A stretch of DNA of 37,706 nt from a virus, in IMG/VR virus record IMGVR_UViG_3300002835_009415, positions 1 to 37,706 of that record. One strand, given 5' to 3'. The first letter of the stretch is position 1, and each line of letters begins with the position of its first letter. This document shows, piece after piece, positions 9,359-30,176 of this stretch. The translations under genes were made by a program, and so were the position numbers. The notes beneath the pieces were generated by a model. It did not search any database, was not told where the DNA came from, and saw only the letters and a program-made list of their open reading frames with translations.

Positions 9359-9741
9359 GGGGGTGTTTCTGGATTTGACAGGAATGAATTTATTATAAAA
9401 CGCACGTCGGGGCTAAACTAACCCTGTAAAACTGGTTTAAAACACAAACGGCAACACAATTGCAAAACTTTCTACACTCGGTTTAATCCGTACTGAAGAA
9501 GTAACTGTAGCCTAATCTAAGATTAGTATACAACGGGGTCGGTGAGCATATAACCTTGCAACAGAAGCTTGTACCGTGGTGTGGTTTCTATCCGAAAAGG
9601 AACAAAAACCTTGTTTGTCTGTTACGGAAGGTTAATCTAAACAGAATATTTTGGAATGTTAAGAACTAACATTATCCTAAACGTGTAGTGTTTTATCGTA
9701 AACATTTTTGGACCTGGGTTCGAAACCCAGCACCTCCACCA
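9359..9741 (+). ncRNA. ssrA: tmRNA (transfer-messenger RNA)
   Basis: One-piece tmRNA of 383 nt. The 5' end GGGGGUG pairs over 7 bp with CACCUCC before an encoded ACCA at 9738-9741. The 5' segment UCUGGAUUUGACAGG matches the conserved tmRNA start, and the T-arm CUGGG-UUCGAAA-CCCAG (with GGUUCGA) is intact. The 5' and 3' ends form the alanyl tRNA-like domain, and the interior holds a tag reading frame. It would rescue stalled ribosomes and tag nascent proteins for proteolysis. It has its own host-type promoter and a strong terminator. tmRNA genes are known in some large phages; its presence beside a Clp ATPase gene is notable. Confidence 0.95.
9450..9515 (+). other. Candidate tmRNA tag reading frame
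   Basis: With a GGC resume codon in the context AAACGGC (as in Bacteroidota tmRNAs, whose tags start with Gly), the frame gives 21 codons beginning GNTIAKL and ending RTEEVTVA, then UAA. The stop falls in a hairpin (CUAAUC-UAA-GAUUAG), as expected for helix 5. An alternative frame from GCA at 9451 gives 11 codons (ATQLQNFLHSV) with its stop in a CGG/CCG mini-hairpin. The first is preferred; neither ends in the usual ALAA. Confidence 0.55.
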
Positions 9742-9770: not shown

Positions 9771-10742
9771 TTATTTTATAAATCTTTTAAAGTTTTTCAG
9801 TTCTTCAGTTAAACTTGATTCTTCTTCTTTTTTCTTAGATTCCTCTTCTTTTTTCTTAGATTCCTCTTCTTTTTTCTTAGTTTCCTCTTCTTTTTTCTTT
9901 TCTTCTTCTTTCACTTTTTCAGTTTCTTTAGCCGCCTCAACAAACTCTTTAATTGGTAATCCTAAAAGTAATGAGTTACAAAAGTTATCTTTTTTGATAA
10001 TATGACCTTCACCAAATAATTCAATAACTTCTTTAACATATTTTTCACAATCAGATTCACTTGTTATTACGGATATTTTTTTAGTTCCAAATTTATCAAT
10101 TATTTTTTCAAATTCAGTATCTACTTTAGATTGTGACCAATCTAACCATTCCGGTACAGGTTCAGGAAATTCAAAATTAGCTAAATTTGATTCCGGTATC
10201 GAACTACAAAAATTATAAGTACTATTTGATTCATCTTTTCCATTTTCAGACCAAGATAGATGGTAATGGGGCCCTGTTGAACGTGGACTTGGGTGTCTAT
10301 ATTCATCAATAAACGTAAATCCGTCAATAGATTGTCTAGCAGCACACAAAAGAGTTGATATTTTATCTAATGTTTCATCGTCAGACACTCTGAGGTCACC
10401 TACAGCTGTTTTCCCAAACACTATGTCATTAGCGTTTCCTTGGGTATGTCGGCTTCTTGTTGACTTATGATATCTATCACGTCCAGCACCAAATCTTATC
10501 TTTAACTCAGGCATTTCTTTTTTAAACGCTGAAGATACTTTTTTTATAACATTTGCTAATTCTGGAGTAATATCACCAAGTTCATCTATTGTTGATTTAT
10601 GTGCATATCCTAAACTATTTAAATGTGTTCTAACACCATTTGCATTAACGTGAGTTGATTTATCAACTTTTTCTTCAAGTAAAACATTTCTTAATTTTTT
10701 AATTTCAGAAATAACTTCTTTGTGACTATTAATCTTATTCAT
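9771..10742 (-). CDS. M15-like peptidoglycan peptidase with leader peptide and K/E-rich tail
   Basis: A 323-aa protein. The ATG at 10742 is chosen because longer reading would run through the divergent gene at 10771, and a promoter palindrome lies in between. The N-terminus HKEVISEIKKLRNVLLEE resembles the leader peptides found here, with an L-L-E end. The catalytic part has the LD/DD-peptidase (M15-like) pattern SRHTQGNANDI (H99, D106) and PHYH (158-161), expected to hold zinc and cleave peptidoglycan peptides. Residues about 275-308 are KKKEEES-type repeats forming a charged helix, ending in LTEELKNFKRFIK. The leader suggests a virion-associated lytic enzyme rather than a late endolysin; that is inference. 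Confidence 0.82.
   Translation of the reverse strand: MNKINSHKEVISEIKKLRNVLLEEKVDKSTHVNANGVRTHLNSLGYAHKSTIDELGDITPELANVIKKVSSAFKKEMPELKIRFGAGRDRYHKSTRSRHTQGNANDIVFGKTAVGDLRVSDDETLDKISTLLCAARQSIDGFTFIDEYRHPSPRSTGPHYHLSWSENGKDESNSTYNFCSSIPESNLANFEFPEPVPEWLDWSQSKVDTEFEKIIDKFGTKKISVITSESDCEKYVKEVIELFGEGHIIKKDNFCNSLLLGLPIKEFVEAAKETEKVKEEEKKKEEETKKKEEESKKKEEESKKKEEESSLTEELKNFKRFIK
9819..9902 (-). repeat. Four 21-nt tandem repeats coding a K/E helix
   Basis: Four consecutive 21-nt units (9819, 9840, 9861 and 9882), TTCCTCTTCTTTTTTCTTAG plus one base, encode heptads of the KKKEEES type. The 7-residue period fits an extended charged helix or coiled coil. Confidence 0.85.
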
Positions 10743-10755
10743 ATATTTTTTTTGT

Positions 10756-10769
10756 ATATTTATAAATAT
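10756..10769. promoter_or_regulatory. Palindromic bidirectional TATTTAT/ATAAATA element
   Basis: The perfect palindrome ATATTTATAAATAT sits between divergent start codons at 10742 (-) and 10771 (+). On the plus strand TATTTAT (10757-10763) ends 7 nt before the ATG. On the minus strand the same element (10762-10768) ends 19 nt before its ATG. Confidence 0.5.
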
Positions 10770-10770
10770 T

Positions 10771-11538
10771 ATGGAAAACAATAAATTAATTAAAATTGCA
10801 CAAAAGTTATCTTTATCGATTAAAGATACAAATGTTGCACAAATATCAAGAAAATTAAATAGCAGTAAAGGCCCGTATAAACAAATGATGTCCGTGTTAG
10901 AAGGATGGGATTTTGTTAAATTGGTATTTTTAATTAATGCCATTAATAATGGTGAAAAAGAATTTGAATCAATATTATGGAAATTAGATAATGAAGGATT
11001 TACCTACGCAATTGCTAATGTATTTGATACTGAAGTTCAGGAAAGCTGTGATTACTGTGGTGGTGATGGTGAGATTAGTTGCAGTGAATGTGATGGTTCA
11101 GGTGAAGTAGAATGTTCTGATTGTGGTGGTGAAGGTGAAAACGAAGAAGGTGAAACATGTGGAAATTGTGATGGTGGTGGTAAAAGTGATTGTGATACCT
11201 GTGGGGGTAGCGGTCATGAAGATTGTTATGACTGTAGTGGTACAGGTGAACAACAAAAAAGCGACGCTTACGAATTAAAATTAGACTTTTATTTTAGTAT
11301 TAATGAAGAATTAAAATCAGAAATTAGTAAACTTAACAGATATGACAAAATTGACTCTGACACAATCACAGATTATGAAGATACAAATGAAACTATATTA
11401 GTATACGCATCACCGATGGCAATAGAAGTTGAGACAAATGAAGAATTAGAATATAATACCGAATATTTTTATGAAATAGATACTGCTGGATGGGTTGGTA
11501 ATACGGCTAGTAGCCCAAACTTTGATTTAGATTATTAA
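10771..11538 (+). CDS. DnaJ-type zinc-finger protein without a J domain
   Basis: A 255-aa protein. Residues 93-159 hold six CxxCxGxG-like repeats (CDYCGGDG, CSECDGSG, CSDCGGEG, CGNCDGGG, CDTCGGSG, CYDCSGTG); DnaJ has four, binding two zincs, so three zinc sites are possible here. There is no J domain (no HPD motif). The N-terminal 90 residues look helical, and the C-terminal 95 residues are acidic. Likely role: a protein-binding or disulfide-active zinc module, possibly a chaperone adaptor. It ends tail to tail with the next gene with a 4-nt stop-codon overlap. Confidence 0.85.
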   Translation: MENNKLIKIAQKLSLSIKDTNVAQISRKLNSSKGPYKQMMSVLEGWDFVKLVFLINAINNGEKEFESILWKLDNEGFTYAIANVFDTEVQESCDYCGGDGEISCSECDGSGEVECSDCGGEGENEEGETCGNCDGGGKSDCDTCGGSGHEDCYDCSGTGEQQKSDAYELKLDFYFSINEELKSEISKLNRYDKIDSDTITDYEDTNETILVYASPMAIEVETNEELEYNTEYFYEIDTAGWVGNTASSPNFDLDY

Positions 11539-21479: not shown

Positions 21480-21947
21480 TTAAATGATTTTCTTGAACCA
21501 CTTAAGTGATTCATTGATTTGTTCTTGTACTAACGAAGCTTTTGATTTTACTTTAATACCTTCTTCAATTTCTTCCATAGTATATTTTTTACTTGAGCAT
21601 TGTTCGCATTGTTCTCCCTCTTTCATTTCACCACCACACTGTTCACATTGTTCTCCTTCACTCATAGATGAACACTGTTCACACATTTCACCTTCATATA
21701 AACCACTACATTGTTCACAAACTTTTTTAAGTTTTCTATTAACTTCTGTATTAGTATATTCCTTAACTTCACCCATATTAGATACTGTAATTCCTTTTTT
21801 ATCTCGATTTAAATCCTCGACATTTAAAGGAGTTTCATTTGGGACATTATTTCCTCTAGTAACATATCCATCATATTGACTTCTATGTTTACTCTGTATT
21901 GATTCTTTTTCTTCTTTAGTAATATTCAAAAAAAATGCGTTTTTCAT
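21480..21947 (-). CDS. Protein with tandem CEQC zinc-ribbon-like repeats
   Basis: A 155-aa protein. Its N-terminus has NITKEEKESIQSKH, a helix of the kind starting other phage proteins here. Residues about 83-125 hold four CEQC knuckles spaced 10-15 residues apart (VCEQCSG, MCEQCSS, QCEQCGG, QCEQCSS) separated by EGE/KEGE spacers. Eight cysteines could bind two zinc ions. The C-terminus KASLVQEQINESLKWFKKII is an amphipathic helix. No family is recognised; it may be a structural or nucleic-acid-associated protein. A TATTTAT element lies 16 nt upstream. Confidence 0.75.
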   Translation of the reverse strand: MKNAFFLNITKEEKESIQSKHRSQYDGYVTRGNNVPNETPLNVEDLNRDKKGITVSNMGEVKEYTNTEVNRKLKKVCEQCSGLYEGEMCEQCSSMSEGEQCEQCGGEMKEGEQCEQCSSKKYTMEEIEEGIKVKSKASLVQEQINESLKWFKKII

Positions 21948-28514: not shown

Positions 28515-30176
28515 TCAAACAATTGGTTTATAAAATTTATGATTTCCGATTGTTGTAGTGTATTTTAATTTGGAATAATCCCAACTTGGTTTAATTGACG
28601 TTGTATGGTAAAATTCAGCACCTTTTGTATTATCAGTACCTTTCTTTTTAATATAATTTTTAACAAGGTTTTGAGCGGTTTCCCAAGCGGAACCATCCTT
28701 AGGGTTTTTTAAAATAGATTTATTTATCTTATTTAAAAAATTATCAGTAGTTGTATCATTCCAAATTGAAAATTGTTTTTTTTGTAAAACAACATCTTTT
28801 GGCGATTTTTTTAGACTATCTGCTCTATTTCTAATAACATTTGCAACTGCTTTCATTCCTTCAGAACCTTCTCCTCTAGCCTCCCCCCATATGGTTGCGG
28901 CAACAATTAAATCATCTTTAGTTAAATTGTCTTTTTCTATTGGTTTTATTGTTTTTACCATTTTCTTAGCGCCGTCAATAACACCTTCTTTTGATTTATC
29001 ACTAGCACCCGTCAACTTGTTAACGTCATCCCAAAAAGTATCTGAGTTTTGATTTTGTTTTATACCCATAATTTTATTCACATCATCAAAAACTGATTGT
29101 TCGTTAACATTTGGTTTTAAAACCGTCATTGCTTCAGGAAAATCTTTATTTAAAACATCTTCGTCTTTATTATCGTAAGGAATATTTTGTAAAACGTATC
29201 TAATTGAATTTAAACCTGAAATTTTCTTATCATTAGAATCTAAAACAACCCAAGGGTGGTTAACTGTTGATGTCTTATCAAAAAGTTTTTGTTTATACTC
29301 TGTGAACTTTTCCCATACATCTTGCATCTTTTCATCATTCTCAGAATACTTCCAATATTTCAATGGTGACTTTTGTCTGAAATCAAATCTTTTAGCCTGA
29401 GTTTCTTTATCTATTGAGAACCAAAGTTTAAATAGATAATCACCATCAACAACCAATGATTCTTCAAAGTCCTGAACATTATCCATAAAGTCCTCATACT
29501 CTTCTGAAGAACCGTAACCCATTACAGGTTCAACTAAACCTCTATTATACCAACTTCTATCAAAGAAGTTTATCTTACCTTTCTCAATTTGATTTCTGTA
29601 TCTATCCCACCAGTTTTTTCTTTCGTCAGGTGTCGGAATGCCAAGAGCAATAACTTTATAATATCTTGGATTTAAGTTTTCAGTAAACTTTTTAATTGTT
29701 GAACCTTTACCTGCTGAATCTCTCCCTTCAAAAACAATAATAACAGTTTTACCTGTTTGTTTTAACCATTCTTGTAATTTTAAAAGTTCAACCTGTAAGA
29801 AAAATATTTCTTTCTTGTAAATGTCTTTATCTAAAATTGACGGTTCCTCTTCGGGACTAACAACTTCTTTTTTAGTTTTTCTTTTTTCTAATGACTTAGT
29901 TAGTTGTTTAAAAAATTCAAAAACATTAATATCCTTATTACCTTTTAATTTCAAAGTTTTTAAAATACCTCTTGTAAGTAATCCAAAATCAACTAACCCT
30001 TCTTTTGAATATTCTTCAATCTTATTAATAAATTTTTGAATTTGAGCACTATATACTTTGTTGTCTTTTAAAATTGCAACGAGAGATTTAACCTCAGGGC
30101 TATACTTTGGTTTGTCAGCTTCTGTCAAACCCATATTATTTTTTATCTTACTAACTTCAGTTAATAAATTCCTCAT
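28515..30176 (-). CDS. PPK2 polyphosphate kinase fused to SleB-like cell-wall hydrolase, with leader
   Basis: A 553-aa fusion. The leader MRNLLTEVSKIKNNMGLTEA has an L-T-E end at residue 19. The PPK2 domain (about 116-340) has Walker A GRDSAGKG (151-158), the family box NFFDRSWYNRG (203-213), the lid arginines (AKRFDFRQKSPLKYWKYSEN) and PWVVLDSNDK near the end, so it should move phosphate between polyphosphate and nucleotides. A linker has two copies of a FDDVNKIMG / WDDVNKLTG motif. The C-terminal domain (about 419-553) is a SleB/Hydrolase_2-type peptidoglycan hydrolase (ATIWGEARGEGSEGMKAVAN, catalytic-type E432) ending FYH...NHKFY. A TATTTAT element precedes the ATG by 4 nt. The combination is very unusual; the leader argues for packaging in the virion. 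Confidence 0.9.
   Translation of the reverse strand: MRNLLTEVSKIKNNMGLTEADKPKYSPEVKSLVAILKDNKVYSAQIQKFINKIEEYSKEGLVDFGLLTRGILKTLKLKGNKDINVFEFFKQLTKSLEKRKTKKEVVSPEEEPSILDKDIYKKEIFFLQVELLKLQEWLKQTGKTVIIVFEGRDSAGKGSTIKKFTENLNPRYYKVIALGIPTPDERKNWWDRYRNQIEKGKINFFDRSWYNRGLVEPVMGYGSSEEYEDFMDNVQDFEESLVVDGDYLFKLWFSIDKETQAKRFDFRQKSPLKYWKYSENDEKMQDVWEKFTEYKQKLFDKTSTVNHPWVVLDSNDKKISGLNSIRYVLQNIPYDNKDEDVLNKDFPEAMTVLKPNVNEQSVFDDVNKIMGIKQNQNSDTFWDDVNKLTGASDKSKEGVIDGAKKMVKTIKPIEKDNLTKDDLIVAATIWGEARGEGSEGMKAVANVIRNRADSLKKSPKDVVLQKKQFSIWNDTTTDNFLNKINKSILKNPKDGSAWETAQNLVKNYIKKKGTDNTKGAEFYHTTSIKPSWDYSKLKYTTTIGNHKFYKPIV

Follow-up and report, generated by a model that had tools for sequence, protein, structure and literature searches.

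A leader-bearing putative zinc peptidase of uncultured T4-type phages as candidate head cargo

Virion-borne cell-wall enzymes are usually parts of the tail, and the head cargo of T4-type phages is best known for anti-restriction proteins. In the available account of phage P1, the muralytic domain sits in the tape measure protein. For T4, the accessible portion of PMC9026906 describes propeptides that direct proteins into the head, a head protease (gp21) that cuts after L/I-X-E, a cargo protein (Alt) that is cut at both ends, and head-packaged cargo that ends in the cytoplasm. T4 cargo with a stated role acts on restriction enzymes in the part of PMC3012670 that was available, and the excerpted text of PMC5694885 reports that the giant phage SPN3US uses A-X-E. 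No paper describing a cell-wall enzyme that is directed into a T4-type head by capsid targeting was found in the open literature, outside which most subscription papers lie.

The window, that is, the whole stretch of DNA analysed here, is a 37.7-kb record of an uncultured virus. An open reading frame of 323 aa on its minus strand (9771-10742, ATG at 10740-10742) was confirmed as a real coding sequence and is predicted to encode a leader-bearing LAS-type (M15-like) zinc peptidase. A mechanical ORF finder gave a longer alternative of 390 aa that begins at 10943. In 14 of the 15 other distinct relatives the frame is shut no more than 16 codons ahead of the corresponding ATG, which makes 10742, not 10943, the likely start. 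Relatives were collected in two viral scans (8 and 22 overlapping loci), and 16 distinct proteins were aligned after identical copies had been set aside. One scan of genome contigs returned no bacterial or prophage relative, and tblastn searches against isolates gave no match for a two-enzyme relative or for a 23-aa leader. The protein divides into four zones, with a leader in front, then a zinc-peptidase-like domain and a spacer, and a C-terminal motif at the end. The convergent neighbour is a tmRNA gene (9359-9741, plus strand) that lies 29 bp from the stop codon of the peptidase gene, so an earlier model-made annotation from the letters alone (the sequence-only reading) was correct in placing the peptidase beside the tmRNA. 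A tmRNA adjoins the peptidase gene in 15 of the 17 related loci scanned (absent in L004 and L009). The phage tmRNA of the window encodes the tag AKLSTLGLIRTEEVTVA. The divergent neighbour (10771-11538) has CxxC-rich repeats which, judged by eye from the translation, have the look of a DnaJ zinc finger.

The origin of the window is indicated by a 66-kb contig (G001), which encodes an identical 323-aa protein and has the window ORFs in the same order. G001 runs on into T4-type head genes, namely terminase, portal, S77 head protease and Gp23 major capsid, and its peptidase gene lies upstream of this head cluster on the same strand; S77, portal and Gp23 fall outside the 37.7-kb window itself. The nearest isolate by capsid protein is Flavobacterium phage immuto (38% over 68% of the query), and the next-nearest are a huge phage, Microcystis phage Mel-JY01 and Rhodothermus phage RM378. 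The S77 (T4 gp21-type) head protease scored over the cut-off in 10 of the 10 larger contigs that carry the peptidase gene. Judged from these head genes, the source is a T4-type phage, belonging to a clade whose contigs reach 294 kb. The gp23 of G001 has HLINE-ASS ahead of its conserved part.

The predicted LAS-type peptidase domain covers approximately residues 29-181 (10200-10658, minus strand). According to the available text of PMC6027127, H-X(6)-D and H-X-H define the LAS-type peptidase group. Both occur in the phage protein, as H99-X6-D106 within SRHTQGNAND (10425-10448, minus strand) and H159-Y-H161 within PHYH (10260-10268, minus strand), and H99, D106, H159 and H161 are invariant in 16/16 aligned relatives. 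The catalytic pattern picked out by the sequence-only reading is present, and its description of the protein as M15-like stands with respect to the zinc motifs but not with respect to family membership, as the protein is outside every Pfam M15 family at the cut-off. No Pfam, PHROG or NCBIfam model exceeded its cut-off for the 323-aa protein, and a PDB sequence search found no fitting family. When the 16 members were compared with the Pfam M15 families, VanY matched four (best E-value 0.073) and Peptidase_M15_4 matched one (E-value 0.12), in all cases below the gathering cut-off. In a structure predicted for the 323-aa protein (pLDDT 76.9), the fold of the domain appears to resemble those of hedgehog/MepA/M15 (LAS-type) enzymes. 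The top seven rows of a Foldseek search with this model were all hedgehog proteins (best probability 0.97 but with an E-value of 0.05), and VIA gave a Z of 7.4 to Shh (hedgehog N-domain) over 121 residues, which is under the Z 8 mark, with lower matches to MepA (1u10, Z 5.5) and a zinc DD-peptidase (1lbu, Z 4.6). Because an ATP-binding fold with no relation to these enzymes reaches 5.9 against the same model, fold alone is no proof, and the putative LAS-type assignment is carried by the H-X6-D and H-X-H motifs instead. The zinc domain might not be a cell-wall enzyme but a packaged LAS-fold protein that, hedgehog-like, acts on a host protein or binds a ligand, as could be argued from the hedgehog domains among the best fold matches and the lack of any M15 model at cut-off. 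We consider this highly improbable, given that 16/16 proteins retain all four H/D/H/H positions and that relatives bear cell-wall enzymes (M23 and Amidase_2) on the same chain.

The nearest relatives of the domain outside the clade are found in tail proteins. The tail hub DAL_82 of Psychrobacter phage D'Alembert, which is annotated as a contractile injection system protein, is 32% identical over 82 residues (E-value 1e-9), and the tail-hub domains of Vibrio phage VH-8 and DAL_82 together reach an hhalign probability of 96.3. L105, an 819-aa leaderless relative of the enzyme domain with no family match, is read as a tape-measure-like protein. This suggests that the domain elsewhere is a virion tail part.

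The N-terminal leader occupies residues 1-24 (10671-10742, minus strand) and contains two to three L/I-X-E sites, at residues 13, 23 and 24. We built a profile from nine leaders that these phages carry on proteins outside the peptidase family, and on it the leader ISEIKKLRNVLLE scores 9.27, with 0.015% of internal windows as high. It thus matches the leader class of many proteins in these phages beyond chance, in line with the cargo-type leader proposed in the sequence-only reading. The leader of the homolog in contig G008 (L029) scores 24.6, higher than every internal window, and the leader of L020 is weaker (0.23% of internal windows as high). Another leader class, borne by other proteins (class B, ITES..L..IVKRVI.E), is N-terminal in 17/328, 22/243 and 11/85 ORFs, compared with 1.2, 0.75 and 0.22 expected, and a stricter class-B pattern was found in 12/328, 22/243 and 10/85 ORFs versus 1/179 in Flavobacterium phage immuto. 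A first leader regex matched 2 of 44 window ORFs; it was too narrow and gave way to looser classes and profiles.

At least two L/I-X-E sites lie within the first 24 residues in 16/16 relatives. Across the 16 proteins, there are 42 sites per 512 residues in the leaders, 17 per 320 in the last 20 residues, 23 per 2344 in the catalytic part and 23 per 2883 in other parts, so that their density in leaders is approximately eight times that in the enzyme domain; the excess in leaders was matched by none of 2000 shuffles. L/I-X-E is a weak motif, short and common across all ORFs: 52/85, 123/243 and 150/328 ORFs have it within their first 30 residues, and 37, 89 and 111 have it in the middle 30. The 323-aa protein has further L/I-X-E sites inside the chain, at residues 54, 147, 184 and 266. 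An alternative is that the leader is a signal for some other destination, such as a phage-made compartment or the tail, and that its L/I-X-E sites are incidental. Leaders are indeed numerous (30, 38 and 20 ORFs under a loose pattern) and fall into at least three classes, they are longer than the 10-residue T4 CTS, and some tail proteins contain domains related to the enzyme domain. However, the clade encodes a T4-type head protease and the L/I-X-E sites cluster in leaders and module joints, not in enzyme domains, which leaves this alternative quite unlikely in our estimation.

The enzyme domain is followed by a spacer domain (approximately residues 197-275; 9918-10154, minus strand), which recurs after each enzyme module in multi-enzyme relatives, and by four 21-nt units (9817-9899, minus strand) that encode KKKEEES/T, a charged spacer predicted to be helical. 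TRF recovered the repeat at 9817-9899 with a period of 21, 4.0 copies, 96% matches and a score of 152. The four-unit repeat tail described in the sequence-only reading is therefore real, and the KKKEEES stretch is predicted to be helical in the structure model, as had been claimed. Its role as a functional constant did not survive comparison, as there are 4, 4, 4, 3 and 1 KKKEEE copies in the five nearest proteins and none in the four distant ones checked, indicating that the tail is a variable charged spacer. Two features had been missed in that reading, the multi-enzyme relatives and a conserved C-terminal motif, SLTE-ELKNFKRFIK (residues 310-323; 9774-9815, minus strand), which includes an L-X-E. 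Variants of the motif across the relatives include LTEELKNFKRFIK, ILEDIEKIKSKMIK, LNEEINKMKKPLK and LAEDIKNKKKIIK, and an L/I-X-E is found ahead of it in 16/16 relatives. The C-terminal L-X-E excess is weak, being reached by 100 of 2000 shuffles. As a genome-wide tag the motif was unsupported, showing no enrichment together with the leader profile (7, 6 and 1 observed versus 5.05, 3.2 and 1.5 expected). A C-terminal regex gave 2, 8 and 11 matches, compared with 0.8, 2.0 and 2.8 in internal segments and 0.9, 3.1 and 5.2 in shuffles; it was devised after seeing the family, and these matches are thus suggestive only. Similar acidic-then-basic ends (INESLKWFKKII, LLNEEMENMKKLIG) were seen in other proteins (window 21480-21947, G006:C1:206147-207592 and G008:C1:195629-196819), where they are a possible second C-terminal tag.

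In some relatives the chain extends into a second enzyme module, which is Amidase_2 in L018 and L026 (likewise in L025, by close sequence identity) and M23 in L024 and L029. L102 (798 aa) combines M15-like, M23 and Amidase_2 modules in one chain with a spacer copy after each. Of its ten L/I-X-E sites, eight (residues 8, 13, 22, 278, 283, 292, 524 and 787) fall near the two ends of the chain or at its two joints, zones that were picked after the sites were seen. A structure model of a two-enzyme relative was discarded for its low quality (pLDDT 55). Such chains might perhaps be head-packed polyproteins of up to three cell-wall enzymes (LAS, M23 and amidase), matured by the head protease at leader-like joints and co-delivered at infection, although we put this forward tentatively and with some doubt.

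A second protein of the window, in which PPK2 is joined to a Hydrolase_2 (SleB-type) domain (28515-30176, minus strand), has a leader that belongs to the peptidase's leader class. The partner of PPK2 varies: where the window has the SleB-type domain, contig G006 has a GH24 lysozyme domain fused to PPK2, and in G008, where PPK2 has no such fusion, the next gene encodes a separate GH24 protein that starts with a leader-like stretch of its own. Whether as PPK2-SleB, PPK2-GH24 or PPK2 with a GH24 neighbour, these phages seem to pair one glycan-cutting and one peptide-cutting leader protein. The different bond specificity that the sequence-only reading assigned to the two enzymes is plausible on their domain types (LAS-type peptidase versus SleB-type glycan enzyme). 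In two other phages of 635 and 642 kb (L091 and L092; LR745206 and LR756502), PPK2 has a near-N-terminal segment ending in FINE-E which resembles a T4-style capsid targeting sequence. PPK2 may widely be head cargo.

A promoter-like element, TATTTATA, is located upstream of the peptidase start (10761-10768, minus strand) in the window and in 15/15 relatives. TATTTAT is a strongly enriched upstream word for the ORFs of G001, G006 and G008 (window copy at 10757-10768), and ATATTTAT precedes 26/85 ORFs in G001 versus 0.1 expected. TATTTAT is probably a late promoter element of the clade. A TATTTAT-type element was found before 16/20, 23/38 and 20/30 leader ORFs and before 21/65, 50/205 and 69/298 others. 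For these counts leaders were typed with a loose pattern, the ORF sets comprised the longest non-overlapping ORFs of at least 80 aa (spurious ORFs included), and the G001 peptidase gene was taken from its longer start and hence is outside the leader count. In G001 the element precedes the terminase, portal, protease and scaffold-like genes, and there is none before gp23. TATAAATA in the T4 sense was rejected, having no tie to leaders in 80-nt upstream stretches, and TATTTAT on the opposite strand was tied to them. The lysozyme gene of G008 is also preceded by a TATTTAT-type element, which suggests that the element marks late genes and not cargo as such.

This late-type element, shared by the peptidase gene and the G008 lysozyme, would also suit a phage endolysin with a leader that regulates or inhibits the enzyme and is taken off at lysis, and LAS-type peptidases are common as endolysins. 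Other cell-wall enzymes were sought with PF01510, PF01551, PF07486 and PF00959 in G000, G001, G003, G005, G006 and G008 (six of 11 records). There was no other endolysin candidate in the window or G001 (three families searched), the window's own contigs (G000 and G001) being fragments. The endolysin explanation is weakened by G008, which has a separate leaderless T4-type lysozyme of 152 aa (E-value 8.2e-42) in the same contig as the peptidase gene. Furthermore, G005, G006 and G008 have a stand-alone Amidase_2 protein of approximately 200 aa far from the leader gene (leaderless in G006 and G008, where the start was read), and the leader class is common to PPK2 and to large proteins near the head cluster, but not to known lysis proteins. 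On this evidence we regard an endolysin as unlikely. The leaderless Amidase_2 genes of G008 (G008:C1:193331-193927) and G006 (G006:C1:203459-204061) are located behind two membrane-type proteins, and the usual first zinc histidine of their products is seemingly a cysteine, as judged by eye.

The best reading is that the protein is capsid cargo, a cell-wall peptidase packed into the phage head, and we consider this fairly probable; the central proposal of the sequence-only reading, a second virion-borne cell-wall enzyme besides PPK2-SleB, is upheld to that degree. It draws on features read directly from the sequences (the leader class with its L/I-X-E sites, the S77 protease gene, the zinc motif and the modular relatives) and on the leaderless lysozyme in G008. 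For packaging, trimming, ejection and the site and bond of action, we infer the following course. The peptidase would be made late and taken into the prohead core by its N-terminal leader, probably with the C-terminal motif as well, and the gp21-type protease would trim it after L/I-X-E at head maturation, as happens to Alt and the internal proteins in T4. Once freed, the enzyme would exit with the DNA at infection and cut peptide bonds of the host peptidoglycan, while the leader-bearing PPK2-SleB protein would attack the glycan side alongside. As T4 cargo goes to the cytoplasm, access to the peptidoglycan would need an extra step. If true, a leader-tagged, protease-trimmed cell-wall enzyme or enzyme chain joins the themes of tail enzymes and head cargo, and raises the question of how head-stored enzymes get to peptidoglycan. 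The leader class could also be used to list, straight from sequence, the head cargo of large phages that have not been cultured. The predicted head packaging and the enzyme chains of the relatives suggest a new mode by which phages may carry enzymes that cut the cell wall.

Compared with described systems, the phage protein shares H-X6-D and H-X-H with the LAS zinc peptidases (M15A, MepA/M74 and the hedgehog N-domain), but it is below every Pfam cut-off and adds a leader and a C-terminal motif. It resembles the tail-hub LAS domains of VH-8 and DAL_82 in domain sequence, whereas theirs are embedded in the hub and have no leader. The T7 gp16-type transglycosylase is a head-internal cell-wall enzyme ejected at infection, as is proposed for the peptidase; it differs in belonging to the ejection-protein core, in having no gp21-trimmed leader and in its fold. 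With T4 Alt and the internal proteins the likeness lies in an N-terminal propeptide with L/I-X-E and in the T4-type protease, portal and capsid, Alt having propeptides at both ends in the available text of PMC9026906. Unlike in T4, the leader of these phages is approximately 24 residues long and of other sequence, and the putative cargo looks like a cell-wall enzyme.
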